Shown piece by piece: positions 12,401 to 56,825 of a stretch of 64,000 nt of DNA. Position numbers and translations under genes: made by a program. The first letter of the stretch is position 1; each line of letters opens with the position of its first letter. The DNA comes from Ridgeia piscesae. Taxonomy: Eukaryota > Annelida > Polychaeta > Sabellida > Siboglinidae. The notes under the pieces are model-generated. The model searched no databases and was not told the origin of the DNA. It worked only from the letters and a program-made list of their open reading frames with translations. Location: positions 146,001 to 210,000 of the forward strand of contig JAODUO010000488.1 in assembly GCA_025642075.2 (NCBI GenBank), read 5' to 3'.

Positions 12401-15400
12401 CCATTCGGCTGGATGAAGTAATTGTGGGATGTCATAATAAAAATAATAATAATAAACTACATTTAGACACTAAACTCCAGTGTAAAACTCTGTTCAGTAG
12501 TGTTGACAATAATAGTCAAAAAGTAACAATAAATATAATAAAAGTACAAGTAAAACATATGATTACGTATAGCTAAATCGTTGTTGTATGGAACTGAGCT
12601 AGAGAAACTAAAACTAAATCAAAGGTTGCATTGTTGTAAATTATATTATGTATCAGTATACATTTATATATAATAAATTAGTACAGTAATACGTTATTAG
12701 TGCTAATTGTAATAAATAATAAATAAATATATGTAAATAGAAAATATTTATGAATAAATAATTTAAATGATATGTTAGTTGAGCTTGTGAGAAGGTGCTG
12801 TAATGTTCAGTTGACTGCCAGTGAGTAAAATGTAAAACACATTAGGTAGTTTTGTAAGGAATTAACTTACTTTGTTGCATAACCTTTGAAACATGCAACA
12901 TTTTGACCCATCAGCTGTAATTCTTGGTCACATAGAATATATTCCATGTGACATGATGTAGACTTGACGACTGGATACAGTGAACTTACCTGTACCTCAC
13001 TGACACTGACACTGACACTGACACTGACACTGACACTGACACTGACGTTGTTGCTGTTTGTGTTGACAGCATTGGGTGGTTGCGTCTACTGCACCACTGT
13101 CTCACGCAGTGTGAGGACATGGAGTCAACGGTTGCCACGGCAGCGGCCCCCATTCCTGACCTTCTCGTCACGTGCACCGCCCTCCTCGTGTCTCCTGGCT
13201 CCATCATCTACTTCACCAACATTGAGGCCGTCCTCCTGCGGATTGGCCTCCACTCGACAGACATTGGCCTCGCCCTCATTGACAGTCTCCTGCGCAACGC
13301 CGGAGCAACCACTGAGAACTCTGGTGTGTGGTTGTGTTCTTTGACATCTGTGGACTTGTGTTACATTTGGAGCATTGTGTATGTGTTGTTTCACTTGGAT
13401 CTAGTCCTCCATTGTTGTATGCATTTGGTGTCAGTTTAGGGTAACATGTATGCTTGCATGCATGTACACACCTATGTATATGTGTACATACATATTTATG
13501 TGTATGTGCTTGTACACACCAATATATTGGATTATAATGGATTGAGATGATACAACAATTTCCATTATACAAACTTGGCTGTTTGCGCAATAAATACATC
13601 TTATTTATATATAAAACATCACGAATGTAAAATTGAAAAACAAAGATTTGTTTGTTTGTTACAGTGTATTTTCATTAGCGAGATACTAAAGCACCTACAA
13701 ATTATGTTATTTAATATTTCCGATGGTAAATATGTATGGTAATGGAAATATATTTTAACACCATAATTTTAACTTTCTTTTCAGTATGATGTGCACGGTA
13801 TTGTGTGTAAATAAGACATGTTTATAGTTCAAACAGCCAAGTTTGATGGAAAGGACGTGCAAAGATAAACTGTAACTCACCAAAGCAAAGCAAGCATGCA
13901 AAGATTTGGCTAGGAATTTGTAATGAATGTGTCCTGATGTTGCAAGCCATGTAGTTATATGAAGTCAGTGTCACTGTCACATGTGTAGGCTGGACACCAC
14001 TACATAGCAAGGTGAATGGCGTGGCCAACGAGTCGACCATTGACATCCTGTACCAACTAGGCATGACTGTGGATGAGGGGACACACGTCAGGTGGGTGCT
14101 GTGTACTTGAGTCTGTCTCTAGCCCACTCTACCTCCTACTGGGGCCATTGCACTGAGGTAGTAAGGAAGCACAGTCATTAAACTGAATCCAGTGTTAAGC
14201 TCTAGGATCATTTTCTAAATGTTAATGGCCACCCCTGTGTCACGGATAACATTATTTATGTGAGATACTGGCGATAATATGAATACAAAATGTAATGCTG
14301 TATTGTATAAAATGTTTGATAAAACTACATGAAAATGTACAGATGTATTCAGACACTAAAATTAATTAAATTATCAGATGCAATAACCAGAAATAATTAT
14401 CAGATACATTGTGCAAACGCGTACAGGTGTCATTGTATGCTGACATCGTGTCACTAAAATAAGATACTCCAAAATATTTTCATATAATCCATAAAAACCA
14501 CAACCATAAGACACACTGTCTGAATAGGTTAGTTTCTCACTGTCGGCAGCACGGGAACAATATGGTAGTACTGACTGTCACATCATGATTGTGTTTGTGA
14601 CGCTGTGACAGAGTGAAGGCGATGGCGGAGTGGCTCGGGGACAATATGGTAGTACTGACTGTCACATCATGATTGTGTTTGTGACGCTGTGACAGAGTGA
14701 AGGCGATGGCGGAGTGGCTCGGGGACAATATGGTAGTACTGACTGTCACATCATGATTGTGTTTGTGACGCTGTGACAGAGTGAAGGCGATGGCGGAGTG
14801 GCTCGGGGACAATATGGTAGTACTGACTGTCACATCATGATTGTGTTTGTGACGCTGTGACAGAGTGAAGGCGATGGCGGAGTGACTCGGGAACAATATG
14901 GTAGTACTGACTGTCAGATCATGATTGTGTTTGTGACGCTGTGACAGAGTGAAGGCGATGGCGGAGTGACTCGGGAACAATATGGTAGTACTGACTGTCA
15001 GATCATGATTGTGTTTGTGACGCTGTGACAGAGTGAAGGCGATGGCGGAGTGGCTCGGGGACAATATGGTAGTACTGACTGTCAGATCATGATTGTGTTT
15101 GTGACGCTGTGACAGAGTGAAGGCGATGGCGGAGTGACTCGGGAACAATATGGTAGTACTGACTGTCAGATCATGATTGTGTTTGTGACGCTGTGACAGA
15201 GTGAAGGCGATGGCGGAGTGACTCGGGAACAATATGGTAGTACTGACTGTCAGATCATGATTGTGTTTGTGACGCTGTGACAGAGTGAAGGCGATGGCGG
15301 AGTGACTCGGGAACAATATGGTAGTACTGACTGTCACATCATGATTGTGTTTGTGACGCTGTGACAGAGTGAAGGCGATGGCGGAGTGGCTCGGGGACAA

Positions 15401-18400
15401 TATGGTAGTACTGACTGTCAGATCATGATTGTGTTTGTGACGCTGTGACAGAGTGAAGGCGATGGCGGAGTGGCTCGGGAACAATATGGTAGTACTGACT
15501 GTCACATCATGATTGTGTTTGTGATGCTGTGACAGAGTGAAGGCGATGGCGGAGTGGCTCGGGGACAATATGGTAGTACTGACTGTCAGATCATGATTGT
15601 GTTTGTGACGCTGTGACAGAGTGAAGGCGATGGCGGAGTGGCTCGGGAACAATATGGTAGTACTGACTGTCACATCATGATTGTGTTTGTGACGCTGTGA
15701 CAGAGTGAAGGCGATGGCGGAGTGGCTCGGGGACAACGCGAGGGTGGCACTTCAGAAGAGTCACGGTGTCACGGACGAGGGTTATCGCCTGCTGCAGCGC
15801 CGTGCCATTCCCGTCGACCTTCCGGCGGCCGCCCCGGCCCACGTGCACTGCATTGCTGCCATCTTGTGGCAGAGCTGGGAACAGTCAGTGCACTACGACC
15901 TCTGTGACATCATCACGCAAGACCTGCTCAGGTAGTTGCAAGAGGTTTATTGTAAAAAACAGATATCTTGGGGTTATGTAAATGTAGAAAAACCTGTAGT
16001 GAACAAGTGATGAGATTACCTCATTCTCCCTCAACCAAAAGATGAGCCAGTGAAATGAAATTCGAGAAGGTTATCACAACATTAAGCCTAAGACAAACAT
16101 TCTTCTTAATTGTTTCAAGTGGACCCTTGGCTTGTCCCTATTAATATGGTGTATTGGATTGTTAAAAAAATATTTTTGACTTGGTCCCCTAGGACTCGTA
16201 ATTTGTGACAATGGCCCTTAAAAATATTTACAAAATGCATATTTTTATTGTGCTAGTTAGTGAACTTGTCGTTATGCTGATTTATTTACATCTGATACTA
16301 GTTGCCAAATATGTTTGTAATGTTTATCAAGTGCTGAATACTGTCATATGTGTTGAATATCTAAAATAATATATACTATGGATGCAGATGTATCAACACA
16401 TATAGTTTGTTACAAATCACCACCAGATGTCCTCATGTTATTACAGAAGCTAAGTGAAGTGTAACTAGCACTTTGAACAAGCTGTGTCTGTACAAATAAA
16501 ACTAATAATGTTTTATTGCCTACCACTAGCTCCGTGTATGAGTGGTCGATGGTCCTCACCCCGGGCTCAACACTCAAGAAAGCTGTCGATGTCGTCATCT
16601 GTTCGCTATGCTACATCCGCCCCGAATACTTCAGCCTCGTCCTCGAGTGGATGGGCATCGTCGTCAGCCTCGATCTGAGCACGGCGGCCATCACTGACGA
16701 CAACAAGGAGGACCAGCAACACCAACAGGGGGCGCTGACCGATGACTCGAAGGCGGAAGCCGACAGTGAAGCGCGGCAGGCGTGGGCGGTGTGGAACGAT
16801 GGCGCACCCGCGTACCAACCAACCGGCGTGCAAGATTTTGGTCACATGATCCTCGACGACCTTCACCTGTCGACGTTGGCCGTTGCGTGTCAGTCACCGG
16901 GTGCATTGAAGCAGTTGCTAGGGTCAGGGTTCGTTGCCGTGCTGTGTCAGGGACTGTTTGAGTTTTGTACTCGCGAGATGTTGCGATGCAGCGACTCACT
17001 TGGCTCGTACCCGGAAGGATTCACGGACTCGTCAAAGAGCCGCAGCGGTAGCGCCACCTTGCGGCCACGATCACCTCGAGGCTGTCGGAGCGGAGTACAG
17101 GACGGTGGTGGCGTGAGAACACGATGCAGCTCCGAGTCATCACAGTCTGGTCAGTGCAGGGCACATTTTATACGTTTATCACAGTGATCGTACGGGGCAT
17201 GGGTGTTCTTGAATAACATGGAATTAGTTCCTTGATCTGGTTTCTTGGTTATTCGTACTGGGTATATTTACCTCTCTACAAACTTTTCTCTGTATAATTT
17301 TGGCCGCTTGTGACACAACCGTAAATTCAGTCTGAGAATGCCTCCTCCATTCCTGGAGAGGTAGCTGTGCCCTGTATGGAATATGTAGGTTAAAAAGCAA
17401 GGCCTTGAAAACCTGAGATTTTCTAAATGGAAGAGTGCATGATTCTAAGTTTTTTTTTAATCTCTGCTGATCTCTGTTTGCCAGACAAGGGCCTGTGTAT
17501 CACTGCTGATCTCTGTTTGCCAGACAAGGGCCTGTGTGTCACTGCTGATCTCTGTTTGCCAGAGAAGGGCCTGTGTATCACGGCTGATCTCGTTGCTCCG
17601 GTGCTCAAGTTCCTAGCTGAGATTTCGAAGGAGTTGGCGATGAAGGACTGGCTCGGTGGTCCTGAAGGCAGCATCTTCTGGCCGGTCCTGCTCAGTCTCA
17701 TGTGTGTCACACAGACCATGGTCCCTAGTGGAGATGGACCATCCAGCACCAAGCAGACGAAGGTCTGTATCGATATGCCAACACTGAGGTTTATTTCTGT
17801 ATTGATCCATGAATTAAAATGGTTATGTACTGGTGAAAATTGTCTGGTGTTCTACATAGCCTTGCTCAAGTGTAGGTTGTATAAGAATTATTTACCTTTG
17901 CTTATCTGGTAAATTTGTTATGCATGTTTTTGAGCTTTTCAAGATAATCAGAAATATGGAATTGTTTTTTATGTCATGAATCCGTTAAATATTTTGGTTG
18001 ATACGTACTTGAATATTATACAGTATACCAACCAATTTAAGGAAAAGGTTGCTAAAGTAAATCTAACCAATTGTGTTTATTTAATAATGGCTATAAGATG
18101 GTAAAGTTTTAACAAGAATGCAAAATGTGTTTATAAGTTCATGCAGCTCTTTTCTTCTTGTGTAACATTTTGTGTGTCCACAGCGCTGCATCCAAATGTT
18201 TTAAGTTCAGTTAAGATATATTATGTATAGCTGCACCTTTATGTTGAATAAACTTAAATTCCAATCACTGTGCCCTACAATCCACACGGACAGTCTGTTG
18301 ATTGCTACGTATTGTGCAGATTCTGTCATTGTGAGATGACCCCTGTTGACCGTGTGGCTGCAGGTGATGACCCCCCAGCAGTGGGCAGCCATTGAGCTGC

Positions 18401-27400: not shown

Positions 27401-30400
27401 CTAACCCATAGTTCTGTAAACATAGTAGAAACGCTTTTAATGTTCAGATCTTACATTTTCAAGTATTAGGTCAATAAATGTGGACATAATTGGTTTAAAA
27501 AACAGTGTGACATCTCCACTGAGACAGAAGGTAATGGTGTGACATCACCACTGAGACAGAAGGTAATGGTGTGACATCACCACTGAGACAGAACGTAATG
27601 GTGTGACATCACCACTGAGACAGAAGGTAATGGTGTGACATCACCACTGAGACAGAAGGTAATGGTGTGACATCACCACTGAGACAGAAGGTAATGGTGT
27701 GACATCACCACTGAGACAGAAGGTAATGGTGTGACATCACCATTGAGACAGAAGGTAACGGTGTGACATCACCACTGAGACAGAAGGTAACGGTGTGACA
27801 TCACCACTGAGACAGAAGGTAACGGTGTGACATCACCACTGAGACAGAAGGTAATGGTGTGACATCACCACTGAGACAGAAGGTAATGGTGTGACATCAC
27901 CACTGAGACAGAAGGTAATGGTGTGACATCACCACTGAGACAGAAGGTAATGGTGTGACATCACCACTGAGACAGAAGGTAATGGTGTGACATCACCTCT
28001 GAGACAGAAGGTAATGGTGTGACATCACCACTGAGACAGAAGGTAATGGTGTGACATCACCACTGAGACAGAAGGTAATGGTGTGACATCACCACTGAGA
28101 CAGAAGGTAATGGTGTGACATCACCACTGAGACAGAACGTAATGGTGTGACATCACCACTGAGACAGAACGTAATGGTGTGACATCACCTCTGAGACAGA
28201 AGGTAATGGTGTGACATCACCACTGAGACAGAAGGTAATGGTGTGACATCACCACTGAGACAGAAGGTAATGGTGTGACATCACCACTGAGACAGAAGGT
28301 AATGGTGTGACATCACCACTGAGACAGAAGGTAATGGTGTGACATCACCACTGAGAGAGAAGGTAATGGTGTGACATCACCACTGAGACAGAAGGTAATG
28401 GTGTGACATCACCACTGAGACAGAAGGTAATGGTGTGACATCACCACTGAGACAGAAGGTAATGGTGTGACATCACCTCTGAGACAGAAGGTAATGGTGT
28501 GACATCACCACTGAGACAGAAGGTAATGGTGTGACATCACCTCTGAGACAGAAGGTAATGGTATGACATCACCATTGAGACAGAACGTAATGGTATGACA
28601 TCACCATTGAGACAGAACGTAATGGTGTGACATCACCACTGAGACAGAAGGTAATGGTGTGACATCACCACTGAGACAGAACGTAATGGTGTGACATCAC
28701 CACTGAGACAGAAGGTAATGGTGTGACATCACCACTGAGACAGAAGGTAATGGTGTGACATCTCCACTGAGACAGAAGGTGATGGTGTGACATCACCACT
28801 GAGACAGAACGTAATGGTGTGACATCTCCACTGAGGCAGAAGGAAATGGTGTGACATCTCCACTGAGACAGAAGGTAATGATGTGACATCACCACTGAGA
28901 CAGAAGTTAATGGTGTGACATCACCACTGAGACAGAACGTAATGGTGTGACATCACCACTGAGACAGAACGTAATGGTGTGACATCACCACTGAGACAGA
29001 AGTTAATGGTGTGACATCACCATTGAGACAGAAGGTAATGGTGTGACATCACCACTGAGACAGAAGGTAATGGTGTGACATCACCACTGAGACAGAAGTT
29101 AATGGTGTGACATCACCACTGAGACAGAACGTAATGGTGTGATATCTCCACTGAGACAGAAGTTAATGGTGTGACATCATCACTGAGACAGAAGGTAATG
29201 GTGTGACATCACCACTGAGACAGAAGGTAATGGTGTGACATCACCACTGAGACAGAAGGTAATGGTGTGACATCACCACTGAGACAGAAGGTAATGGTGT
29301 GACATCACCACTGAGACAGAAGGTAATGGTGTGACATCACCACTGAGACAGAAGTTAATGGTGTGACATCACCACTGAGACAGAAGGTAATGGTGTGACA
29401 TCTCCACTGAGACAGAAGGTAATGGTGTGACATCACCACTGATGCAGGTGCTGGCGAGTTACATCAACCCAGTGAGTCAGCTGGTGGAAGACTTTGAGGC
29501 GGCTGTATACGACGAGGATGAACAGTCGACACATGCGGGTCTGCCTCCATCCCTGCCTGAGCTCCTCAGTCAGTCCTGCCTTGTCCCAGCCATCTCCTCC
29601 TACCTCCGCAATGACTCAGGTGAGTTTGTGTCATTAAAGAATTTACCTTTTTATAATGTGAAGTTCAAGAAGTAATAATTTGGCATCGAACACATGCAGT
29701 ATTCGGATGTTCTGTTGTGTGTTGTGTTGTGTTGTGTTGTGTTGTGTTGTGTTGTGTTGTGTTGTGTTGTGTTGTGTTGTGTTGTGTTGTGTTGTGTTGT
29801 GTTGTGTTGTGTTGTGTTGTGTTGTGTTGTGTTGTGTTGTGTTAAATTCTGTCTCTAAGTGTCTAAGACAAAGTTGTATAAACAAGAATTGTAAATGTTT
29901 GATCTACTAGTGTCATGCTGCGTGAGAGTGCAGTGTGCTTGGTGTTATTGCTATCAGCGTTATTGTAATGTTATGTGCTGCAGTGTTGGACATGTGATGT
30001 GTGTACAGCTATATGGGATGTGTGATGTTTGTAGTGCAGTATGTGATGTTTGTGCTGCTGTATTAGATATATGATGGTTACACTGCAGTATGTGATGTTT
30101 GTGCTGCAGTGTTTGTGCAGTAATGTTAGACATGTGATGTGTGGGCTGCAGAATGACAGAATGTGATGTTTGTGCAGCAGTGTTGTATGTTTGCTGTCTG
30201 TGCTGCAGTGTTTATGCAGAGTGCTTGTGCAGTGATGTGTGTACTGTGCTGTCTGTACTACACCCTATGTTGTGTATACTGTACTGTGCTGACTGTACTA
30301 CACCCTGTGTTATGTGTACTGTATTGTCTGTACTACACCCTGTGTTGTCTGTACTACACCCTGTGTTGTCTATACTACACGCTGTGCTGTCTGTACTACA

Positions 30401-33400
30401 CCCTGTGTTGTCTGTACTACACCCTGTGCTGTCTGTACTACACCCTGTGTTGTCTGTACTACACCCTGTGTTGTCTGTACTACACCCTGTGCTGTCTGTA
30501 CTACACCCTGTGTTGTCTGTACTACACCCTGTGTTGTCTGTACTACACCCTGTGTTGTCTATACTACACGCTGTGCTGTCTGTACTACACCCTGTGTTGT
30601 CTGTACTACACCCTGTGCTGTCTGTACTACACCCTGTGCTGTCTGTACTACACCCTGTGCTGTCTGTACTACACCCTGTGCTGTCTGTACTACACCCTGT
30701 GCTGTCTGTACTACACCCTGTGTTGTCTGTACTACATGCTGTGTTGTCTATACTACACGCTGTGCTGTCTGTACTACACCCTGTGTTGTCTGTACTACAC
30801 CCTGTGTTGTCTATACTACACGCTGTGCTGTCTGTACTACACCCTGTGTTGTCTGTACTACACCCTGTGCTGTCTGTACTACACCCTGTGCTGTCTGTAC
30901 TACACCCTGTGTTGTCTGTACTACACCCTGTGTTGTCTGTACTACACCCTGTGTTGTCTTACTACACGCTGTGTGTCTGTACTACACCCTGTGTTGTCTG
31001 TACTACACCCTGTGCTGTCTGTACTACACCTGTGTGTCTGTACTACACCCTGTGTGTCTGTACTACACCCTGTGTGTCTGTACTACACCCTGTGTGTCGT
31101 ACTCACCCTGTGTTGTCTGTACTACACTGTGTTGTCTGTACTACACCCTGTGTTGTCTGTACTACACCCTGTGCTGTCTGTACTACACGCTGTGTGTCTG
31201 TACTACACCCTGTGTTGTCTGTACTACACCCTGTGTTGTCTGTACTACACCCTGTGTTGTCTGTACTACACCCTGTGTTGTCTGTACTACACCCTGTGTT
31301 GTCTGTACTACACCCTGTGTTGTCTGTACTACACCTGTGTTGTCTGTACTACACCCTGTGTTGTCTGTACTACACCCTGTGTTGTCTGTACTACACCCTG
31401 TGTGTCTGTACTACACCCTGTGCTGTCTGTACTACACCCTGTGTGTCTGTACTACACCCTGTGTGTCTGTACTACACCCTGTGTGTCTGTACTACACCCT
31501 GTGTTGTCTGTACTACACCTGTGTGTCTGTACTACACCCTGTGTTCTGTACTACACCCTTGTTATCTGTACTACACCCTGTGTTGTCTGTACTACACCCT
31601 GTGTTGTCTGTACTACACCCTGTGTTGTCTGTACTACATGCTGTGCTGTCTGTACTACACCCTGTGCTGTCTGTACTACACCCTGTGCTGTCTGTACTAC
31701 ATGCTGTGCTGTCTGTACTACACCCTGTGCTGTCTGTACTACACCCTGTGTTGTCTGTACTACACCCTGTGCTGTCTGTACTACACCCTGTGTTGTCTGT
31801 ACTACACCCTGTGTTGTCTGTACTACACCCTGTGTTGTCTGTACTACACCCTGTGCTGTCTGTACTACACCCTGTGCTGTCTGTACTACATGCTGTGCTG
31901 TCTGTACTACACCCTGTGTTGTCTGTACTACACCCTGTGTTGTCTGTACTACACCCTGTGCTGTCTGTACTACACCCTGTGCTGTCTGTACTACACCCTG
32001 TGTTGTCTGTACTACACCCTGTGCTGCCTGTACTACACCCTGTGCTGTCTGTACTACACCCTGTGTTGTCTGTACTTCACCCTGTGTTGTCTGTACTACA
32101 CCCTGTGCTGTCTGTACTACACCCTGTGCTGTCTGTACTACACCCTGTGTTGTCTGTACTACACCCTGTGTTGTCTGTACTACACCCTGTGTTGTCTGTA
32201 CTACACCCTGTGTTGTCTGTACTACATGCTGTGCTGTCTGTACTACACCCTGTGCTGTCTGTACTACACCCTGTGTTGTCTGTACTACACCCTGTGTGTC
32301 TGTCTACACCTGTGTTGTCTGTACTACACCCTGTGCTGTCTGTACTACACCCTGTGTTGTCTGTACTACACCCTGTGTTGTCTGTACTACACCCTGTGTT
32401 GTCTGTACTACACCCTGTGTTGTCTGTACTACACCCTGTGTTGTCTGTACTACACCCTGTGTTGTCTGTACTACACCCTGTGTTGTCTGTACTACACGCC
32501 TGTGTTGTCTGTACTACACCCTGTGTTGTCTGTACTACACCCTGTGTTGTCTGTACTACACCCTGTGCTGTCTGTACTACACGCTGTGTTGTCTGTACTA
32601 CACCCTGTGTTGTCTGTACTACACCCTGTGCTGTCTGTACTACACCCTGTGCTGTCTGTACTACACGCTGTGTTGTCTGTACTACACCCTGTGCTGTCTG
32701 TACTACACGCTGTGTTGTCTGTACTACACCCTGTGTTGTCTGTACTACACCCTGTGCTGTCTGTACTACACCCTGTGTTGTCTGTACTACACCCTGTGTT
32801 GTCTGTACTACACCCTGTGTTGTCTGTACTACACCCTGTGTTGTCTACTGCACCCTGTGTTGTCTGTACTACACCCTGTGCTGTCTGTACTACATGCTGT
32901 GCTGTCTGTACTACACCCTGTGCTGTCTGTACTACACGCTGTGTTGTCTGTACTACACCCTGTGTTGTCTGTACTACACCCTGTGCTGTCTGTACTACAC
33001 CCTGTGTTGTCTACTGCACCCTGTGTTGTCTGTACTACACCCTGTGTTGTCTGTACTACACCCTGTGTTGTCTGTACTACACCCTGTGTTGTCTGTACTA
33101 CACCCTGTGCTGTCTGTACTACACCCTGTGCTGTCTGTACTACACCCTGTGTTGTCTGTACTACACCCTGTGCTGTCTGTACTACACACTGTGTTGTCTG
33201 TACTACACCCTGTGCTGTCTGTACTACACCCTGTGCTGTCTGTACTACACACTGTGTTGTCTGTACTACAGTACTGGACATGGCACGTCACGTGCCCCTC
33301 TACAAGTCCCTGCTGGAGCTGTTGCGGGGTCTCACCATCTGCCCTGTCCTTGTGCCCCTCCTCCTGCCTCTGGACCGTGACAACGACTCGTCCTCCATCA

Positions 33401-36400
33401 GCACCCTGCTGCAGAAGATGAAGGGATGTGTCGACACGTACGCCAGCCGCCTCAAGTAAGTGTCATTGTCAGAGGCACACTCAAATGAGTGTCATTGTCA
33501 GAAGCACATCTCCAGTAAGTGTCATTGTCAGAGGCGCACCTCCAGTATGTGACATTGTCAGAAGCATGCCTCGAGTGTCATTGTCAGATTCAAGCTTCAT
33601 GTATGTGACATTGTCACCTCAAGTGAGTGTCATTGTTAGAGGCATCAGTTATTAATAAGGTAACTTCTGTTTTGACTAAATCGTTGGAAACTAAGTTGAG
33701 AGGCACATCAAGACAAAGTTAATCAGTCTCAAAATGTATAAGTAATATGTTAAGAAATGGGTGGATATGCCAGGAGTTATGGTGGAGAAGTAAGGTTATA
33801 AGTGTTTACAAATTGGCAGTGCTACTTGCCATTGTCTACACTTGGTCAGCTGTTGTGAAGGTTTGCAATATCATCCTCCGACTTATATGTTAAGATATCC
33901 TCAATATGTAACTGGGATTGATGATAATTTTTTATTATTATCATCACTACGTCCTGGCAGCATAAGACGTAAGTGGCATCTGCAGGCACAATTAATTGGT
34001 CTCTGATTATTGGTTGAAGTAGGCAACTGAAAAAGAGGTTTTCTGAGGTACCTCACTGGAAGTGCTCGGGTAAAGAACAAGTCAGTGATGGTATAACATT
34101 GCATCCCTCCAGTCCATGAATCGTTTTGTTGGTTGCCAGGAGCAACAAGGTGAAGAGCAAGAGTAAACAAGACGATGACGGGTCGGAGGGTCTCGCTGAG
34201 CTGATTCCTGACATCCAGAAGACTGCGCAGATAGTTGACGCCGCAGTCAGCCGTCTGTCTGACAGATCAGGTGAGGGCAACCACAAGTTACTAGAGCTCT
34301 GTGTCACTGGGCCAGATAACTCACAGTTCCAGAGAGTCTCTCAGTCACCAACAGGGGGCAGCATTAAGTACTGCTGGGTGCTTGTTTGGCTGTCAACATG
34401 TTTTGTGACAAATATCAAACCAGGTAGCAATATATTTTGAAATAGTACTGACAGCATATGTCAGCTACACATATAAGTCTGATCACACGAGATAAGCCAA
34501 TAATTTCCATACTGAGTTGCCAGCTCGGATTATTGGTTTTTGTTGTGTGACAATTTTATGGGGCACATAATACCAGGTATACTATTTAGTCCATCAAACT
34601 TTCAGTTAAGAGACACACAGTTCCAACTCTCTTGCGACCAGTACTAAGCTGGGACATTTATATTCACTCTGCTGCATTCCAGGTCGTTTGTATGACTACC
34701 TGTCTCTAGACAGTGGTGGATATTTGTGTACAAATAGTTTTGCAGTAAATGCAATGTGGTTGAATGCTTCCCTTCTTGAAGAAGTTGAAGTGGTGTTCAT
34801 ATGAACACATCTGTCGTTAGGTAAAGTATAAACCATATACGTTCCAGTATCACAGGATACCATGCTGTATAAATTGTATCTTGGTCCTGTTTCTCTCAGT
34901 TTGGTTTATCTAGTATACAAACCTTGCATGGTTTGGTCATTCATAAATGTGTCCCTCTTAGCGTAAGTCCCGAAATCCTACTGGAAAATAGGCCAAGCTG
35001 ACTGATTGCTTCTTCACTAAGACTATGACTGTCATAATGTTGTAAAATTTGCAAAAATTATTTACATCAAAAAGATTTTGGCAAGTTTCTAGTATTCAAT
35101 TCACCAGGTGTCAGCATATTCTGTTTAACCTGTGTGTTAACTTTGTGAAACCTGTGTAGTCCACTGTGTAAGACACTATACTGTGTAGTTCACTGTGTAA
35201 GACACTGTACTGTGCAGTTCACCGTGTAAGACACTGTACTGTGTAGTTCACAGTGTAAGACACTGTACTGTGTAGTTCACCGTGTAAGACACTGTACTGT
35301 GTAGTTCACCGTGTAAGACACTGTACTGTGTAGTTCACCGTGTAAGACACTGTACTGTGTAGTTCACCGTGTAAGACACTGTACTGTGCAGTTCACCGTG
35401 TAAGATACAGTACTGTGTAGTTCACCGTGTAAGACACTGTACTGTGTAGTTCACCGTGTAAGACACTGTACTGTGTAGTTCACCGTGTAAGACACAGTAC
35501 TGTGTAGTTCACCGTGTAAGACACAGTACTGTGTAGTTCAACGTGTCAGACACTGTACTGTGTAGTTCACCGTGTAAGACACTGTACTGTGTAGTTCACC
35601 GTGTAAGACACTGTACTGTGTAGTTCACCGTGTAAGACACTGTACTGTGTAGTTGAATGTGTAAGACACTACTGTGTTGCCTGCAGCTGTGAAGACATCA
35701 GAGAAGACTGACGTGTTGGACTCAGTGGTCACCCTGCCCTGTGGCGTCAGTGCCCATGACCACTCCACAGACCAGCTGTATGTAGCCACCATGAGGGAAC
35801 TACAGTTTGGTGAGTGTCCACTGGAAGTACCTGTCAATCTCCTTGTTGTGTTTGTCAAACAAGATATTACTATGTGTAAGCAATGACTGTTGGTTACCAG
35901 GCTGCAGTGATTTAAAGACTGGTTGATAAGTTGAGTTCCAATTTGTATCTTTGTCTCATGCTGGTTTTCGGATGTACTGTGTTGAAAGACATGATTACAA
36001 GCTGTGTGTAGTTTATTTCTAAGATGTTTATATAATTATGCAGGGTGGGGTAGTGGTTGCAATGACCGACTTTTAAGTTTCAGTCGAGTGATTCTGGGTT
36101 TGAAGCCTTGGAAAATTTCACTGACTCCACCTGACCATTGTCACTCAACTGTATGAATACAAACTTGGCTGTAAACAGTGGGAGATATTTGTGTATGAAT
36201 AGTCTTGATACAGTAATTGCAGTGTGGGTGAAAGCGTCCCAGAAATGTTAAGGTGGCTTTAAGTTGAAAAGGTCTGCATGTTAAGTATTAAGCGCTTCAA
36301 AAGGACTCGATCCTTAGTTTCTCTTCTTCTGAGTAATGTGGTAGCGCCAACTTGAGCCAGTGTCCCACAGGTTTGTCTTTTGTTGTCCGTAGACGAGAGA

Positions 36401-36977
36401 TGGCAATGGAAGGCCAGAGCGAAATGTTTGTTATCTGTAGATATACCTGAGGTGGTGTTGGAAAACAAATGTGAAATATTTATTTATCATCTATGGATAT
36501 GTTTGAGATGGTGTTGGAAGAAGGGACTGAAATGTTTATACCCATATAGACATGTTTGATGTGGTGTTGAACGATATGTTTGTTGTGTGTAGATACGTTT
36601 GAGATGGTGTTGGAAGATGAAAGTGGGCTCAAGTTCATTGTTCCCCACCACTACGAGTCAAACGTGAAGACGGCGGGTGACGTGACGAATGCGTCTCGGG
36701 CGCGGCGCCTGGCCCAAGAGGCTGTCACGTTGTCCACGTCACTGCCACTGTCAGCCAGCAGCAGTGTGTTTGTACGGTGTGATGAGGAGAGGTTGGACGT
36801 CATGAAGGTTTGTCACTGCTTCATGTGTTAGTAGCTCTTTCAGGTGACACATGTTATGTACTTGTAAATTATACAAAGTACCATGAACAAACATTAATTG
36901 TTATGCTTGCACACACACACACACACACACGCACACACGCACACACGCACACACGCACTCACGTACACAGGCACGCA

Positions 36978-37009
<32 letters not shown>

Positions 37010-37011
37010 CA

Positions 37012-37056
<45 letters not shown>

Positions 37057-40000
37057 TCATCTGCAATGATGTCATCCACCCCCAGACATGATACCACATG
37101 TATTCACCCATTAACTCAACATGTATTATAAAACATTCATCCAACTACGGACTACAACAAACTTCACTTACGATGGACACTACTCTATTGCAATGTGTAA
37201 ATGTTAGAAGACAGATGTTATTTGATTCAACAGAGACATGATAAAAACAAATTACAACTGGTGGCTCTTACGGTAGTCACTTCAGTGGAAGTCCTAGTAA
37301 GAGTTTCCTTGGTCCTTACTGTATATCACACCTGCAAATAATGTGTTATTATTTTTGAGTATTTGTACACTTTGGAAAGATATCCACTTCTTCTTGAGAC
37401 CACTGTAAGACTAGGTCAATATTCTCTGTTTTTCAACATGTCCACCATGACAACCATTCAGCAGCAGCAACTGTACATGTAACCATGACAACCATTCAGG
37501 TAACCACGTCGGCCATTCATGTAACCATAGCAACTATCCAGATAACCATAACAACCATACGGATAATCACAGCAACCTTTCGGGTGGCATTGGGGGGTTG
37601 TGCAGTAGCTACCCTGGAGCGTAGCCTTGTGTGCATATAGTTACCATGACAACAGGAAGTCAGTGGTGTGTCTACATTGTTTGCAGGTGATGATAACAGG
37701 GCCTGGAGACACGCCCTACATGAATGGCTGCTTTGAGTTTGACGTCTACTTCCCCCAGGACTATCCCAATGCCCCACCCCTCATCAGCCTAGAGACAACA
37801 GGCAACCACACCGTCCGATTCAACCCTAATCTCTACAATGATGGAAAGGTGAGATTATCTATCCTTAATCTGATTGGTGAGATCACAACTTTAAGACTGT
37901 TGACTCCAACTTTCTTGTGCACTCCAGATTTTGTGATGTTTTGAAAGCTCTACCTTGTTTTATTTCCTTGTCATTCACTTATGTGCAAGAGACCCAAATA
38001 GATATTTGAAGGTTTGATGGTCACTGTTTTAAGCAATAAGTCTTTCTTGTGATTTATATAATATAAATGAGTGTGTTGAAGCGTGTGTTGATGTGGGTGT
38101 TGAGTGTTGTGAGGTGTTGTGTTGTGTTTCAGGTTTGCCTCAGTGTTCTCAACACATGGCACGGCCGACCAGAGGAGAAATGGAATTCACAAACGTCTAG
38201 TTTCCTCCAGGTAAACTGGCTTTCTTCAGATCATCACGAAAACTAGAGTAGCTTCTGTGATGTGTTTCTGGAAAAATTATGAAAACTTATTATCTTAAAT
38301 AAGTTACGTATTTACAGTGCAGTGTATCTGGGTATAAATTATGTAAATAGTTTTATTTAATGTGACGTTCCATCTTCCAGCTGTTCTTGCTGAGAAAACT
38401 GAAAACTATAGTAAATATATGTGATTTTAGATCAGTCGAGTTACATCCGTTTAGATTTCAGGATAAACCCAAAAATAACTTTAAAAACGTTAACAAGAAA
38501 TTTTGAGAACATTTAGGTGTTCTTTTTCTTTCATATTATCATACATAAACGAATTCCTGATGTTTGCCATCATACACTTAAATACTAGTTTGATTATAGA
38601 TGGCTTGTAATATTTTAATGGTAGTAACAGTTCTGTATCCGTAAATATTCTAGCTGGCACAACAACCAATTTCAGGCTTAATCATAATTGGGGACAAGCA
38701 ACAGTCATCATTGGAGTACATTTCCACCAAGATATAACATTGAGGTTGTATGTGCCACAGGTACTCGTGTCAGTCCAGTCTCTGACTGATGTTACATGTG
38801 CCACAGGTACTCGTGTCAGTCCAGTCTCTGACTGATGTTACATGTGCCACAGGTACTCGTGTCAGTCCAGCCTCTGACTGATGTTACATGTGCCACAGGT
38901 ACTCGTGTCAGTCCAGCCTCTGACTGATGTTACATGTGCCACAGGTACTTGTGTCAGTCCAGTCTCTGACTGATGTTACATGTGCCACAGGTACTCGTGT
39001 CAGTCCAGTCTCTGACTGATGTTACATGTGCCACAGGTACTCGTGTCAGTCCAGCCTCTGACTGATGTTACATGTGCCACAGGTACTCGTGTCAGTCCAG
39101 TCTCTGACTGATGTTACATGTGCCACAGGTACTCGTGTCAATCCAGTCTCTGACTGATGTTACATGTGCCACAGGTACTCGTGTCAGTCCAGTCTCTGAC
39201 TGATGTTACATGTGCCACAGGTACTCGTGTCAGTCCAGTCTCTGACTGATGTTACATGTGCCACGGGTACTCGTGTCAATCCAGTCTCTGACTGATGTTA
39301 CATGTGCCACGGGTACTCGTGTCAGTCCAGTCTCTGACTGATGTTACATGTGCCACAGGTACTCGTGTCAGTCCAGCCTCTGACTGATGTTACATGTGCC
39401 ACAGGTACTCGTGTCAATCCAGTCTCTGACTGATGTTACATGTGCCACAGGTACTCGTGTCAATCCAGTCTCTGACTGATGTTACATGTGCCACAGGTAC
39501 TCGTGTCAATCCAGTCTCTGACTGATGTTACATGTGCCACAGGTACTCGTGTCAATCCAGTCTCTGACTGATGTTACATGTGCCACAGGTACTCGTGTCA
39601 GTCCAGTCTCTGACTGATGTTACATGTGCCACAGGTACTCGTGTCAATCCAGTCTCTGACTGATGTTACATGTGCCACAGGTACTCGTGTCAGTCCAGTC
39701 TCTGACTGATGTTACATGTGCCACGGGTACTCGTGTCAGTCCAGTCTCTGACTGATGTTACATGTGCCACAGGTACTCGTGTCAGTCCAGTCTCTGACTG
39801 ATGTTACATGTGCCACAGGTACTCGTGTCAATCCAGTCTCTGACTGATGTTACATGTGCCACAGGTACTCGTATCAATCCAGTCTCTGATCCTCGTGTCG
39901 GAACCATACTTCAATGAACCCGGCTATGAGAGGTCAAGAGGCACTCCGTCGGGTACAGCAAGTTGCCGCGAGTACGACGCCAACATCCGCCAGGCCACCG

Positions 40001-42855: not shown

Positions 42856-43480
42856 TTTCGATGTGTTACTGTCTTCAGTTCCCTGATGTCAGGGTCTGTG
42901 AAATATCACTAATATGTTAATTATTTAATTACACAGCCATTTGGATAATTATTTTATTAAATTATAAAAGATAATATAAAATATTACATTTTATGGTAGT
43001 TGCGTAAAATGAAACTTTAAAATGCAAATTTATGTAGAAACAGACATCATGATTATGTCGGACAACTACTAGCCTAGCACAGAACAGCAAACCAAGGACA
43101 GCCATCATTAGTGTTTTGATCCTGTACTTGTTAGTTTTAACAATGTTATTTCTGCTATAGCCAGTTACAGTGTTAGTAAATGGCTGACCAGTTGGCCTGG
43201 GGGTAAACTTGTACTTTAAACTGTACTCAAACTGGCTGCATTGTCAAGTAACTTGTGATTTCACTTGTACTGTACTGATGTACCACAACCCTTGGGCCTC
43301 CTCACTGTGTTTATACTGTACACATAAGGTTATATATTTCTTACTTACAATGAACATAGTTCACTCTCCACAACACAGTTACGTGGAGAATACAGTACAA
43401 TATAGCACATGTGACAGTGTGCACTACAGTTCCAAGTCTAAATATTACATTATATTCTTCTGAGATCTTGTCTGTGGCGA
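42856..43480. other. Convergent intergenic interval, BIRC6 / LRR1
   Basis: No gene recognised. TTTATT at 42953-42958 is an AATAAA on the minus strand and the best candidate poly(A) signal for LRR1, which would give LRR1 a 3'UTR of about 1.1 kb and leave under 100 bp between the two transcripts. Other parts are AT-rich unique sequence. Confidence 0.4.
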
Positions 43481-44060
43481 ACCATCCATGACTTGTTCAC
43501 TTCTACAATCTATCACACATGACTTGTTTCACAATCTGTTACACATGAGTGGTTCCACACTGTCACACACAACTGGATCCACTATCTGCTACATGCCTGG
43601 TTTCTCAACATGTCTCTCCATGACTGGTTCTGCAGTCTGTCATGTATGACTGGTTCTGCAGTCTGTCATGTATGACTGGTTCTGCAGTCTGTCATGTATG
43701 ACTGGTTCTGCAGTCTGTCATATATGACTGGTTCTGCAGTCTGTCATATATGACTGGTTCTGCAGTCTGTCATGTATGACTGGTTCTGCAGTCTGTCATG
43801 TATGACTGGTTCTGCAGTCTGTCATGTATGACTGGTTCTGCAGTCTGTCATGTATGACTGGTTCTGCAGTCTGTCATATATGACTGGTTCTGCAGTCTGT
43901 CATATATGACTGGTTCTGCAGTCTGTCATGTATGACTGGTTCTGCAGTCTGTCATGTATGACTGGTTCTGCAGTCTCTCTCACACGGGACTGGTTCCACA
44001 ATTTGTCACACATGACTGGTTCCACAGCTACGTCACGGATGACTTCTTCCACAGACTGCT
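43480..44060 (-). repeat. 26-bp minisatellite in LRR1 3' region, about 22 units
   Basis: A clean core 43630-43975 of CTGCAGTCTGTCATGTATGA followed by CTGGTT (plus-strand reading), flanked by degenerate 26-28 bp copies (GACTGGTTCCACAATTTGTC, GATGACTTCTTCCACAGACT). On the high side these reach across the LRR1 stop codon into its last codons. Confidence 0.9.
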
Positions 44061-44295
44061 GTACGGGTTCCGTTGATATTTCTCGAAGCAGCTGCGCGAA
44101 CAGAGAAACGCCTCGCACGGTGCAATGACACTGCCCCGCTGGTCAATGGCAGTGACCTCTGAGGTGACCTGGCGGAGGTCAAGAGTGGTCAAGTAGTGGA
44201 CATGGGAGGTGAAGCACACGTTGCCGCACAGACACCTCTTGCCACTGCGTAGATAGCGCAGCAAGTGACCAACGTCCTCCTCCGTGTAGACCACC
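44028..44295 (-). CDS. LRR1: LRR1 exon 5 (C-terminal, Cys-rich)
   Basis: Acceptor TTTGCTGCAG. It encodes VVYTEEDVGHLLRYLRSGKR and a Cys-X-Cys pair in CLCGNVCF, then FLCSRSCFEKYQ, ending KKSSVT and TAG. The spacing of the cysteines follows human LRR1. The 26-bp minisatellite downstream fades into the last codons. Confidence 0.93.
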
Positions 44296-47200
44296 CTGCA
44301 GCAAATGACAACAAACAGCTGTGTTAGTGCCACCCTGTCTCTAGAGGACCACCCACGATGATCCACCCGTCACTTGGATGGGCATAAATGGGTACAAATG
44401 TGTGGATGGGTACAAAAATTTGAAGTGAAATAAAAAAAAGCAAATTTCAATTATATTGTCAGTTATGCATCGTAAATGTGTGTCATGTTTGTGTGTGTGT
44501 GAATTGTTATGTATTTCTGGACATTACACATAAAACAGCTTCTAATTACCCAATATGATCCTTGCATGCCACGGATGGTTGCAGCCGATTATGTTAGTAG
44601 CAGCCTTCACTCTACACACCCTGAACATCACTTTTAAAAACTCATCTTTTAATATCAGCCAATGAAATTGAAATCGCCCATGAAAGTGTGGTCGGACTCT
44701 GCATGTAATATAATTTTGTGTGATTTCAGCCACCCACTGCTCGTGTTACGTGCAGTGTTTAGGAGGTGAGTGGGTCATTATGTTGGGATTCCCACAAGTC
44801 CTGTCTCCGTCTTCAAATTGGGACGGGTAGTGACTGGCAAAGTCAATAAACTAGTTCAACTAGACAATGTCAACCACTTCTCATCGGAGAGTTGTCAGGG
44901 GTAGTTTGCATGCCAAACTGCCCTGGCTTAGGAGGGTGCCTGGTATGCACTTTCCAACAGATGTCTATTGGTATGTTTTTGTACTGCCAAAGTCTTGATC
45001 CTGCATAAAGGCCTTTCAACGTACACAATCCCCTTTTACCTATTCTAAATGGACAAATGTGTTGATGACTATTTTACGTTATTTTAAACTGGATGGATAT
45101 TTTAAACTGGGTGGATATTTTTTTTTAAACTGGGTGGATATTTTTTTTTAAACTGGATGGATATTTTTAACTGGATGGATATTTGTACACTGGATCTGCC
45201 CCTGTAGCGTCTCACCGGTGTTTGTGAATAGCTTTTGCCGCACACTCCAGTAATGACGGGAACCTCAGCCGGTCAATGGCACTGGACGGTCCAGCCTGAA
45301 TGAACTCATTGCCGGAGAGGTCCAGGTTCTCAAGGCGAAGTTGTGTGAAGCTTGCTGGCAATGTCTGCAACTTATTCCCCACTGCAGAAATGAACCTAAG
45401 CTGTGTCATTCGGTTGATCCCGTGGGGCAAACAACACAGTTCATTTGAGTCCAACTTGAGGGTGACCAGGGCCTCCAATTGGCAGAATTCTGATCTCAGC
45501 ATCTTCAGCCTAGAGATTTTGTTTTGAGATCAGTAATGAATACAGTATAGGGCCTGCAGCGTTACTGGTGAGAACACTGCACATTAAGGAGCAGTGGTTT
45601 GATACCACCTGTTGCTGTTTTGGAACAAAAGCTTCAAAATGACAACTCATTCATTGAAATATTTTTTGTATTCTTATTTATTTTTTGCTAAAATTTAAGC
45701 CCAATTTATATAAAAAGTGAAATTGTGAGAGAAGAGATAATTTTGATTCATGCATGTATATTTTTTATTATTTATAAAAATGAACTGGGTGTTGGAAGAT
45801 TAAAACACTTGATACGCATTTCTGCCCAAATCACAACACTGATATGACACATTCACAGCTATCTGTGGCACACCCTGTATCACTTCACACCTGGTCCACT
45901 GTGGTGGGTCACAGTACGTGTGACGTGTGACAGGTCAAACAGTATAATATTTATTATAATAGTAAATACAACACATGCAAACAATAATTATTGTTGATTG
46001 ATCTAAGACATAAAACACTACATGCCCCCATATATCAGTACAACTACTTACCTTTCTTTAAATAACAATGATGTTATAAATAATATTATTTATTATGCAG
46101 ATAATTCTACCTGAAAGAAAGTGTCAGCATTTAATACTGACACAACAAATATTCTGACTATTATCAATTTTTTAGTAACCACTGAATTAAAAACAAGAAA
46201 ACGGTTACCTATTTCCACTCAAGTCAAGCAGGTTTAATGTTTGACAAAGTGGCCCAGAGCAGAATCCAACTGGTATGTCCTCCAGGTGGTTATTCGCGAG
46301 TCGTAGTTCCGACAACCGGTCTAGACGGCTGAAATCATCTGGCAGTGTTTTCAGATGATTTCCGCTCAAGTCAAGTGATCGCAAATTATAGAGGCGGAGC
46401 ATTCGTGAGTCGATTCGTTTCAGCGTGCAGTCTGAGACCCGTAAGGAGGTGAGGGAAATTGGGAAACCGGTAGTTATAGGGTAGTCTTTTCTATTCGTCA
46501 CCACCATCTTGGTCCTCTGTCTCTCCACCTGCTTCGCACTGGCCGGTGCCAATGATGACAGTGTGACCTTGCTGAGGTCGTTGCCTTGGTGACCGAGCCG
46601 CACGACCGACAGAAAGCTCTTCAACTGGATGGGGTCGGCCTGGGAAAACAATCGCAAGTTTATGTGTATTTTTCCTTGGCCTAGTGTAAGTAAACTTTGA
46701 ATTATACTTAGCCCAAACCATGGTTTTGGTGAGTAATGATAATTTATTACACATTTACAGTACAGATTAAACTATCTAATACCATTTCTACATATGACAG
46801 ACAGGATTGGGGGTTTACTGGGGGGGCAGAACCATGTCTGCCCCTAACGTAAATCATGAGTATATGTACCCCAGGTATACTGCAAATGTAAAGTTTTAGC
46901 CAACATCTGACTTTGTTACTATAATGTTGCGTATATTGGCACAAAAGGTAACTATGCCAGAGGCAGTAGTGTCATTGTGAAATCTATGAACATATTTAAA
47001 TATTCAAAAATTCTAAACTTTTTTTATTTCATGGTGTGTAATAATATAAATACATGTAAGACCACTAATAGCTTTCCTTTGAATACAAACTAACCAGTGA
47101 TTGTTAAACCTGTTCTGCACTACCAAGTAGCCACCTGACATATGACCTAGTAGCCACCTGACATATGACCTAGTACCCATCTGACATATGTAGCCACCTG

Positions 47201-49536
47201 ACATGATCTAGTACCTACCTGACATATAACCTAGCACCCACTTGACATATGACCTAGTACCCACCTGACATATGACCTAGTAGCCACCTGACATATGACC
47301 TAGTACCCATCTGACATATGTAGCCACCTGACATGATCTAGTACCTACCTGACATATGACCTAGCACCCATTTGACATATGACCTAGTACCCACCTGACA
47401 TATGACCTAGTAGCCACCTGACATATGACCTAGTACACACCTGACATATGACCTAGTACCCACCTGACATGACCTACTACCCACCTGACATATGACCTAG
47501 TACCCACCTGACATGACCTACTACCCACCTGACATATGACCTAGTACCCACCTGACATGACCTACTACCCACCTGACATATGACCTAGTACCCACCTGAC
47601 ATATGACCTAGTACCCACCTGACATGACCTACTACCCACCTGACATATGACCTACTACCCACCTGACATATGACCTAGTACCCACCTGACATGACCTACT
47701 ACCCACCTGACATATGACCTAGTACCCACCTGACATGACCTACTACCCACCTGACATATGACCTAGTACCCACCTGACATATGACCTAGTACCCACCTGA
47801 CATGACCTACTACCCACCTGACACATGACCTAGTACCCACCTGACATATGACCTAGTACCCACCTGACATATGACCTAGTAGCCACCTGACATATGACCT
47901 AGTACACACCTGACATATGACCTAGTACCCACCTGACATGACCTACTACCCACCTGACATATGACCTAGTACCCACCTGACATGACCTACTACCCACCTG
48001 ACATATGACCTAGTACCCACCTGACATGACCTACTACCCACCTGACATATGACCTAGTACCCACCTGACATATGACCTAGTACCCACCTGACATATGACC
48101 TACTACCCACCTGACATATGACCTAGTACCCACCTGACATATGACCTAGTACCCACCTGACATGACCTACTACCCATCTGACATATGACCTAGTACCCAC
48201 CTGACATGACCTACTACCCACCTGACATATGACCTAGTACCCACCTGACATGACCTACTACCCACCTGACATATGACCTAGTACCCACCTGACATATGAC
48301 CTAGTACCCACCTGACATGACCTACTACCCACCTGACATATGACCTAGTACCCACCTGACATATGACCTAGTACCCACCTGACATATGACCTAGTACCCA
48401 CCTGACATGACCTACTACCCACCTGACATATGACCTAGTACCCACCTGACATATGACCTAGTACCCACCTGACATATGACCTAGTACCCACCTGACATGA
48501 CCTACTACCCACCTGACATATGACCTAGTACCCACCTGACATATAACCTAGTACCCACCTGACATATGACCAAGTCATGAGGTGGTTCCTGGAACCGTAT
48601 TGTGGCTTTGCCTTGTTGAACAAACTTTGTGAAATACTGCTCTATGTTATTCCTCAGCTGCAAATGAAATGTTGAGTATATAACTTATATTTATGTAAAC
48701 GTGAATGACTGCATCATTTATTTACCAAATTTTAGGGCTGTTCACTTTATCTGTTCAATCAAACATCATCTGGACTTCTCTAAAAGCCACACTGCAATTA
48801 GTGCACAAAGAACATTCATACACAACTATCCACTACTGTCTGTACTTAATCATACAGTTGCGTGAACTGGAGCAATATAGAATAGATTAACTGCACAAGT
48901 CAAAAAGGCTGTACAGGATTTGACCAAGTCTGGGTTCTCACTGGAGAGTCCAGTGTTCTATTTTCTGCACCACACAGGCAAATTGGTATTTTGTGAGGCT
49001 GGGTGTTCCTTCTTCCATTAATGACCACTGATCAATTAGCTGACTATAAAGGCATAACTGTCATGGGTTGCAGGTCGAGATGTCCTTCTCTAGATTCGAA
49101 TTTGTGGTTCACTACAGGTTACACATTTACCCCATGTGTGGGATATTTTACTACCCCTGACATAGACACCAGATAGAAGGGACCACCGGCTTTTAGTGTC
49201 TCTTCCGAAAGACAGAGGCAATGTGAGGTGAACAAAATTGCCCAATTTTTAAAATGGTGGCAGGTGGGATTGAACCACCGTCCCCTCGATTAATAGCCTG
49301 GCGCTCTACCACAAGACCATCACTTCTCACTGTTGTGCCATTATCACTATCACCTGATACTTTGCTCCGTTCCGGTCCAGCTTTGTACACATCATGAGGA
49401 AGACTTCGCCAGTATTTCCACCTGCTCCAGGTTTCCTCCCCACAGATAGCTGAGCTCGACTAGACTTGCCCTTCTTCTTCATATTAAAAGAAGGTAGCAG
49501 CCGATTCACAACATCAACATCACAGCAGATCCGCAT
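44028..49536 (-). CDS. LRR1: LRR1 (PPIL5), leucine-rich repeat protein 1, five exons, complete
   Basis: LRR1 is the substrate receptor of CUL2 ubiquitin ligase that targets the CMG helicase at replication termination. Joining (minus strand) 49536-49354, 48657-48559, 46639-46209, 45509-45216 and 44295-44028 gives 1,275 nt with matching phases, 424 residues plus TAG; the human protein is 414. Start MRICCDVDVVNRLLPSF matches human MKLHCEVEVISRHLPAL; LRNNIEQYFTKFVQQGKATI matches LRENIEQFFTKFVDEGKATV. LRRs include LRSLDLSGNHLKTLP and LDLSGNR; the C-terminal region has KRCLCGNVCF and FLCSRSCF, as in human ICVCGRFCL and YFCSLGC. Head-to-head with the channel exon, tail-to-tail with BIRC6. Intron 2 carries a donor-derived minisatellite. 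Confidence 0.95.
45080..45190. repeat. Short AACTGGATGGATATTTT repeat
   Basis: Five imperfect units of AAACTGGATGGATATTTT with variable T-runs, starting about 25 bp after the donor of LRR1 exon 4 on the minus strand. Confidence 0.8.
45216..45509 (-). CDS. LRR1: LRR1 exon 4
   Basis: Acceptor AATCTCTAG; donor CACCG|GTGAGA. It encodes FCQLEALVTLKLDSNELCCL, LRFISAVGNKLQTLP and LENLDLSGNEFIQ, the later LRRs, then LRFPSLLECAAKAIHKHR, matching human PLTLLESSARTILHNR. Confidence 0.95.
45600..46200. other. LRR1 intron 3, AT-rich
   Basis: No gene or clear repeat. A GTGGTTTGATACCACC motif just before it (about 45591-45606) could be a B box of a degraded SINE, too weak to call. Confidence 0.4.
46209..46639 (-). 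CDS. LRR1: LRR1 exon 3
   Basis: Acceptor TTTTCCCAG; donor AATAG|GTAACC. It encodes LKSFLSVVRLGHQGND, KMVVTNRKDYPITTGFPISL and two to three LRRs (LYNLRSLDLSGNHLKTLP, LSELRLANNHLEDIP), colinear with human LRR1. Confidence 0.95.
47127..48571 (-). repeat. 21/23-bp minisatellite carrying the LRR1 exon 2 donor, about 65 units
   Basis: Minus-strand unit GGTCATATGTCAG|GTGGGTACTA (exon-end bases plus donor), alternating with a shorter GGTCATGTCAG|GTGGGTAGTA form. It begins at the true donor (48559/48558) and runs 1.4 kb into intron 2. Each unit keeps CAG|GTGGGT. An ordered alternation of 23- and 21-bp forms gives a higher-order period of about 44 bp in 47450-48250. Confidence 0.95.
48559..48657 (-). 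CDS. LRR1: LRR1 exon 2, last bases replicated downstream
   Basis: Acceptor TCATTTGCAG; donor GTCAG|GTGGGT. 33 codons, LRNNIEQYFTKFVQQGKATI to EPPHDLVICQ. The spacing from EPP to FLS equals human with this donor, which supports it over the alternative TTG|GTCATA. The final exon bases plus donor are the unit of the array that follows. Confidence 0.9.
48950..49325 (-). mobile_element. tRNA-derived SINE in LRR1 intron 1
   Basis: On the minus strand GGTCTTGTGGTAGAGCGCC (A box) and GGTGGTTCAATCCCACC (B box) form a tRNA-like head at 49325-49255. It is followed by CTTTCGGAAGAGACACTAAA, GGTCCCTTCTATC and AAAATATCCCACACATGGGG, which resemble the conserved central domain of invertebrate SINEs (CTTCGGA..GACGTTAAA..GGTCCC..AAAGATCCC). 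The head starts about 28 bp inside the intron. The 3' end is not well defined. Confidence 0.7.
49354..49536 (-). CDS. LRR1: LRR1 exon 1 (coding)
   Basis: ATG at 49536-49534; donor TATCAG|GTGATA. 61 codons ending FLMMCTKLDRNGAKYQ. The start is chosen by match to the human N-terminus. TTTGCAG lies just 5' of the ATG (before 49541), so the ATG may open the second exon of a transcript with a 5'UTR intron. Confidence 0.92.
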
Positions 49537-55039: not shown

Positions 55040-56751
<1,712 letters not shown>

Positions 56752-56825
56752 GTTGTTGACACTGTTTTAGCATATATTTAAAATGTAACCTAGTTTTCCG
56801 CATTAGTTCACAGACTGGGCCATGC

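Follow-up and report, generated by a model that had tools for sequence, protein, structure and literature searches.

At exon-intron borders in several genes of this genome, the edge of an exon, including its splice site, has repeatedly been copied into the adjoining intron and multiplied there as a minisatellite, in some cases to about a hundred copies. Such arrays are of a known kind, described in amphioxus as "mirages"; here they were found in a lophotrochozoan, with more copies and with a rate of occurrence obtained from sampled junctions. The window, which is the whole stretch of 64,000 nucleotides that was analysed, corresponds to C488:146001-210000 of an assembly of 628 Mb in 4,875 contigs, and positions within it are given in plus-strand numbering from 1.

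The 3' part of the BIRC6 gene occupied positions 1 to 40053 of the plus strand, its exons lying between array-bearing introns, and a further match to a BIRC6 exon was detected near 40648. Human BIRC6 matched the concatenated window exons with E values of 4e-99 and 3e-227, and the best named matches of full-length BIRC6, among the 120 listed of 704, were from Lingula anatina, Lineus longissimus and molluscs. LRR1 was located on the minus strand of the window, the closest of its 69 matches being 86 to 87% identical. No Branchiostoma was named among the 120 BIRC6 matches listed or among those LRR1 matches that bear a name, and an early suspicion that the DNA was from amphioxus was therefore dropped in favour of a lophotrochozoan as the most likely source; matches to COX1 were 76% identical at best. 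Arrays were called by TRF, and exon borders were taken from curated splice sites. Tandem arrays with a period of at least 10 accounted for 20.8% of a 264-kb stretch of contig C488, 20 kb of which consisted of N. Large arrays in the window included one of 4.4 kb with a 30-bp unit in a BIRC6 intron (7300-11663), ending 59 bp short of the acceptor, and one of 4.2 kb, built of a 29/58-bp unit, that lay in none of the identified genes (59587-63817). A 5-bp repeat, TGTGT, was present in 25 copies with a 100% match at 29718-29843. Endonuclease-like and reverse-transcriptase-like open frames on the minus strand at 55230-57914 are presumably, from the appearance of their motifs, pieces of a non-LTR retrotransposon, and these retrotransposon-like pieces were split by a perfect stretch of (CA)91 at 55413-55594.

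Five arrays in the window, which the first-pass annotation had described as having units that include a splice site and adjoining exon bases, were confirmed by comparison of the TRF calls with the exon borders. Three were located at BIRC6 acceptors on the plus strand. The first of these (14552..15736) contained 14.1 copies of an 84-bp unit and extended into the exon that begins at 15704, with 33 exon bases and a copy of the acceptor in each unit. The second (17460..17591; 3.4 copies of 39 bp; exon from 17563) and the third (38750..39889; 24.8 copies of 46 bp; exon from 39865) had units with 29 and 25 exon bases, encoding KGLCITADL and VLVS[IV]QSL, respectively. The other two were donor arrays. 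On the plus strand, the BIRC6 array at 33450..33616 had 5.7 copies of a 30-bp unit with six exon bases followed by GTAAGT, the last exon base being 33455; on the minus strand, the LRR1 array at 47122..48575 had 65 copies of a 23-bp unit composed of 12 exon bases (coding for VICQ) and 11 intron bases, the last exon base being 48559. Exact copies of the acceptor context, with the authentic site counted, numbered 13 at 15704 and 21 at 39865. A query with positions 15600-15900 returned a single match, which was its own locus.

Three further plus-strand arrays in BIRC6 had been said to supply or abut an acceptor, and this was also borne out. The array at 27505..29442 (60.6 copies of 32 bp) ended 5 bp before the acceptor of exon 29448, that at 30244..33270 (146 copies of 21 bp) ended 1 bp before exon 33272 with its last unit forming the acceptor, and that at 35152..35677 (18.2 copies of 29 bp) ended 9 bp before the acceptor of exon 35687. 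No exon bases were seen in the 32-bp unit at 29448.

A similarity test was applied in which the terminal 30 bases of each exon were aligned to the adjacent intron and the scores were compared with those of segments from within exons. Of the 56 exon ends in the window, 4 scored 23 to 30, with none of 781 internal-exon segments exceeding 14. Among the 47 curated introns of BIRC6, 6 of 94 ends exceeded the highest score, 14, reached by any of 842 strict exon controls, these being five acceptors and the donor at C488:119706, which, with a score of 15, was just over the line. Use of looser controls (2,432 segments, some of them from uncurated intron; maximum, 18) left 5 of 94 BIRC6 ends, all acceptors. 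The acceptor at C488:140944, the donor at 33455 and the exon start at 2191 fell below the control line, the six-base exon part of the 33455 array being too short to beat the controls. The first-pass annotation had also listed decayed arrays before exons 36593 and 2191, both on the plus strand. The former was clear, as decayed copies of the exon start were present at 36444..36621, upstream of the acceptor, and the exon start matched the intron with a score of 23 of 30. The latter was weak, being a possible decayed duplicate within 2043..2235 with the copy approximately 140 bp upstream, a score of 12 of 30 (P = 0.019) and a score of 17 of 44 that was reached by 0.3% of 1169 controls.

The direction of copying was assessed by comparing borders with the corresponding coding sequences of other species. 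Human BIRC6 aligned with conserved coding sequence across the 39865 border, the 17563 exon matched human ITADLVAP and the 15704 exon aligned with human RIQALLKW. For LRR1, a relative reads EPPHDLVICHADPIQ over the border, and the LRR1 protein of a relative (P0001; 86% identical) runs uninterrupted over the array-bearing border. The exonic part of the units is thus old coding sequence, which argues that, at the borders compared, the exon edge with its splice site was copied into the adjoining intron and not the reverse.

To describe the units, 16 clear examples were picked out by visual inspection of the window, of the contig and of the sample described below, and they are therefore not a random set. 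The exonic fraction of these units ranged from 0.20 to 0.76, and the position of the border within the unit was not distinguishable from uniform (Kolmogorov-Smirnov test, P = 0.28). Periods divisible by three occurred in 6 of the 16, which is no excess. An AGGT at the border was seen by eye in seven, and intron bases were present in all 16. Short similar stretches flanked the duplicated segment in some cases, for example at 17563, where a reading of the sequence showed ATCTCTGCTGATCTC on the intron side and ATCACGGCTGATCTC on the exon side, and at locus L073, where CTGTAG and CTGCAG flank it. Such flanks fit slippage or unequal exchange.

Similar arrays were detected outside the window. Two upstream BIRC6 acceptors bore long arrays, one at C488:123112 with 85 copies of a 29-bp unit containing about 20 exon bases and one at C488:140944 with about 119 copies of a 33-bp unit containing about 10 exon bases; exact acceptor contexts, including the authentic site, numbered 73 and 101, respectively. 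At a RAD51 acceptor on the same contig (C488:7844-8619), a 41-bp array contained the splice site together with 21 exon bases in 14 exact copies, the authentic one among them. In order to survey other genes, exons were taken by rank of Pfam match with repeats disregarded, 20 from myosin in a first set, then 19 from SNF2 genes and 19 more from myosin. The first set comprised the highest-ranking myosin matches free of internal stops and was examined with 500 bp on either side (one flank was 200 bp), and the later 38 exons with 350 bp; one SNF2 exon, at C1602:55506 (L062), was left out for overlap, and a 20th further myosin exon gave up its place to L090. Splice sites were assigned with a small weight matrix, some being altered by eye or omitted; the donors of L068, L070 and L073 were scored at corrected sites and not inside their arrays, and four ends without a trusted site were excluded. 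At 6 of 112 exon ends, intronic copies outscored every one of 2,188 controls, the best of which reached 14 of 24; these ends were the acceptors of L057 and L066 and the donors of L061, L068, L070 and L073, with L057 being a further decayed version. None of the six were among the first 20 myosin exons. At L068, 22 of 24 exon-end bases were copied and the TRF array began 17 bp inside the intron, so this locus was not counted as spanning, while L086 (score, 11) and L078 (score, 13) were below the control line, yet by TRF had spanning arrays with few exon bases.

Arrays whose units align to exon sequence were found in several genes on several contigs. The affected borders were acceptors in BIRC6, RAD51 and L066 and donors in LRR1, L061, L070 and L073, with spanning units of 20 to 84 bp. 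A rule that only acceptors are affected, which the BIRC6 data had suggested, was dropped, as the sample contained donors and the BIRC6 donor at C488:119706 passed the strict controls. Some other features were observed at or beside the sampled loci. L061 and L068, which we take to be CHD-like genes of the SNF2 family, had different donor arrays at an apparently homologous junction (C243:106265-106399 and C544:158261-158389). An exon on contig C272, outside the sample and beside a sampled myosin exon, had a 66-bp array with a unit encoding PMGILALVDE. At C1015:211404-214058, partial myosin-head matches fell more than once on the same stretches of the model (121-152 twice, and 91-120 along with 91-116), which is what extra border copies would give.

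The placement of arrays was compared with a null in which array births were uniform in collapsed introns and flanks. With arrays collapsed, introns had a median length of 591 bp, and in introns as short as these, uniformly placed units of 20 to 84 bp will frequently run across a border. Of 25 arrays in BIRC6, 5 were spanning, with at least 5 exon bases included, versus 2.11 expected (P = 0.054), and 11 versus 3.15 expected (P = 5e-5) either were spanning or lay no more than 10 bp from a junction; these 11 were divided into 9 at acceptors and 2 at donors, with 1.57 expected for each. P values from the window itself are optimistic, since the window was picked for the pattern. In the part of BIRC6 outside the window, there was 1 spanning array versus 0.76 expected and there were 4 near-junction arrays versus 1.18 expected (P = 0.02). 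In the sample, where the count takes the nearest array per flank (34 of 39 arrays), 6 of 34 were spanning versus 2.24 expected (P = 0.021), with 2 at acceptors and 4 at donors. Arrays that abutted a border without clear exon bases were 3 of 17 at acceptors versus 0.54 expected (P = 0.016), and there were none at sample donors. The two sets combined gave 11 spanning arrays versus 4.35 expected (P = 0.005), or approximately 2.5-fold, and 20 versus 6.8 expected (P = 3e-5) that were spanning or within 10 bp. A harsher null, in which truncated flanks were collapsed, predicted 5.60 spanning arrays in the sample versus the 6 seen (P = 0.50), with no excess. This null was set aside, since a 350-bp window filled by an array offers it almost no space, and we think that it over-corrects. 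The first-pass annotation had considered the anchoring of arrays at junctions to be far more than random birth would give and had called for array distances to be compared with random placement. With that comparison run for BIRC6 and the sample, an excess stood, but it was only 2- to 3-fold, was of borderline strength for spanning arrays in BIRC6 alone and was absent under the harsher null. Overall, chance in short introns explains much, but not clearly all, of the junction placement. The GC content was 57.8% in exons (restricted to open spans), 49.6% in arrays and 37.3% in array-free introns, and this contrast alone could favour births that take in exon sequence.

The best explanation, and in our judgement a fairly probable one, is neutral duplication at junctions in a genome prone to minisatellites. 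Short tandem duplications would arise along the whole gene, those within exons would be purged by selection, and those in introns or spanning a border would be retained. When a border is duplicated, the splice-site copy adjacent to the exon would yield an unchanged mRNA and the additional copy would leave with the intron. Later expansion in copy number, of the sort behind the tandem arrays that take up about a fifth of this contig, could turn an initial pair into a long array in which the exon edge and its splice site are repeated. We infer that the process is neutral, that the outermost splice-site copy is in use and that the molecular step is slippage or unequal exchange. The units carry exon sequence from their own locus and vary from one locus to another, which favours this account. 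Growth into the intron only, which had been offered as a sign of a special process, is expected wherever the mature mRNA is kept; because the outer copy preserves the mRNA, confinement of copies to the intron side is not evidence of such a process. Against neutrality, the junction excess persisted, the acceptor bias in BIRC6 is unexpected under a uniform process, and splicing might be disturbed by the exact acceptor contexts in the duplicates. The residual 2- to 3-fold excess may reflect base composition or a modest real bias.

That same excess would be accounted for directly if duplication were linked to junctions, with splice borders acting as hot spots, for example under R-loops, under replication stress coupled to transcription or by slippage within the TG/pyrimidine-rich tract of the 3' splice site. 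The combined counts of spanning and near-junction arrays are in line with this, as are the 9 of 25 BIRC6 arrays at acceptors and the recurrence of acceptor-abutting arrays in the sample. We nevertheless consider a junction-linked process unlikely, since the effect is small and disappears under the harsher null, the position of the border within the unit is unclustered, and the GC-rich composition of exons and arrays relative to introns is a simpler possible cause. Selection for the arrays, with multiple splice sites, branch points or polypyrimidine tracts regulating splicing, appears improbable. The arrays at 29448 and 33272 do provide the acceptor region and copies retain intact splice contexts, but the units differ between introns and only 5 spanning arrays were present among the 25 arrays in 47 BIRC6 introns. 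An origin of the introns themselves by tandem duplication of exonic AGGT segments, with the arrays as remains, was proposed by the amphioxus authors (PMC3087553), and tandem genomic duplication has in vivo support according to a review (PMC3443670); the arrays here hold duplicated splice sites and pieces of exon, as this would require. The first-pass annotation had drawn the same parallel, which was not supported: AGGT was at the border in fewer than half of the units, all 16 units contained intron bases, and 310 to 974 bp, partly filled by other arrays, separated the five spanning BIRC6 arrays from the opposite border of the intron, so that we regard intron gain as very improbable. Insertion of introners or transposons does not agree with the units seen, which vary from locus to locus and match the exon beside them.

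An artefact of assembly or long reads is also very improbable, since the copies match their consensus at only 76 to 98%, decayed versions exist (36593 and L057) and the arrays are distributed over several contigs, although a COX1 contig with frameshifts points to assembly errors or nuclear mitochondrial copies in this assembly. The COX1 sequence in question (C3158:12438-13633; L029 and L030) belongs either to a mitochondrial contig prone to errors or to a copy in the nucleus, and the frames beside it are presumably ND3/ND2-like and COX2-like.

A bolder reading goes beyond neutral duplication. Splice borders would be true hot spots of duplication in this lineage, with several percent of them multiplied, and the spliceosome would reliably pick the outermost of up to about 100 identical sites, independently of amphioxus. 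We hold this to be rather doubtful, with a chance that is small without being negligible. If it is true, a natural experiment in splice-site choice has arisen separately in amphioxus and in a lophotrochozoan, and if several percent of junctions have been self-copied, evolution alters the length of introns and the redundancy of splice sites more quickly than has been assumed. Where an intron holds dozens of exact decoy acceptors, it probes the rule that the first AG after the branch point is chosen; if the last copy is used, the spliceosome bypasses many identical acceptors.

The closest known system is that of amphioxus. The original paper on mirages, by Canestro et al. in 2002, is cited by the amphioxus globin study. 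In that study (PMC3087553), tandem repeats over exon-intron borders were described in Adh3 and two globin genes, BflGb6 and BflGb9, and named mirages; units were 10 to 160 bp, 5' and 3' borders could both be affected, many copies had AG or GT signals, RT-PCR suggested that splicing was undisturbed, and intron gain was proposed. The arrays here are alike in having units that span the border and hold exon sequence, in occurring at donors and acceptors, and in unit lengths (20 to 84 bp) within the amphioxus range. They differ in their lophotrochozoan host, in a maximum of about 119 copies compared to 6 and 3 in BflGb6 haplotypes, in having a per-junction rate (6 of 112 exon ends) and in being known from one genome assembly. 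No lophotrochozoan report of border minisatellites was recognised in the open-licence literature from titles and the starts of abstracts. Intron gain by tandem genomic duplication, as reviewed in PMC3443670 and with potato RdRp as a case (PMC4974935), is similar in that splice-site sequence is duplicated and coding sequence can stay unchanged, whereas here existing introns were lengthened and the units include intron bases. In human genes of segmental duplications, gene structure is changed by minisatellites of roughly 30 bp, a number of which lie at exon-intron borders (PMC2812944); transcripts that keep the repeat in the exon also have support for the majority of these introns. Those cases are recent human paralogs in which the repeat is often exonic, whereas the copies here appear to be intronic. 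The recurrence of such arrays so far from amphioxus suggests that mirages are a general by-product of minisatellite-rich genomes and not a cephalochordate oddity.
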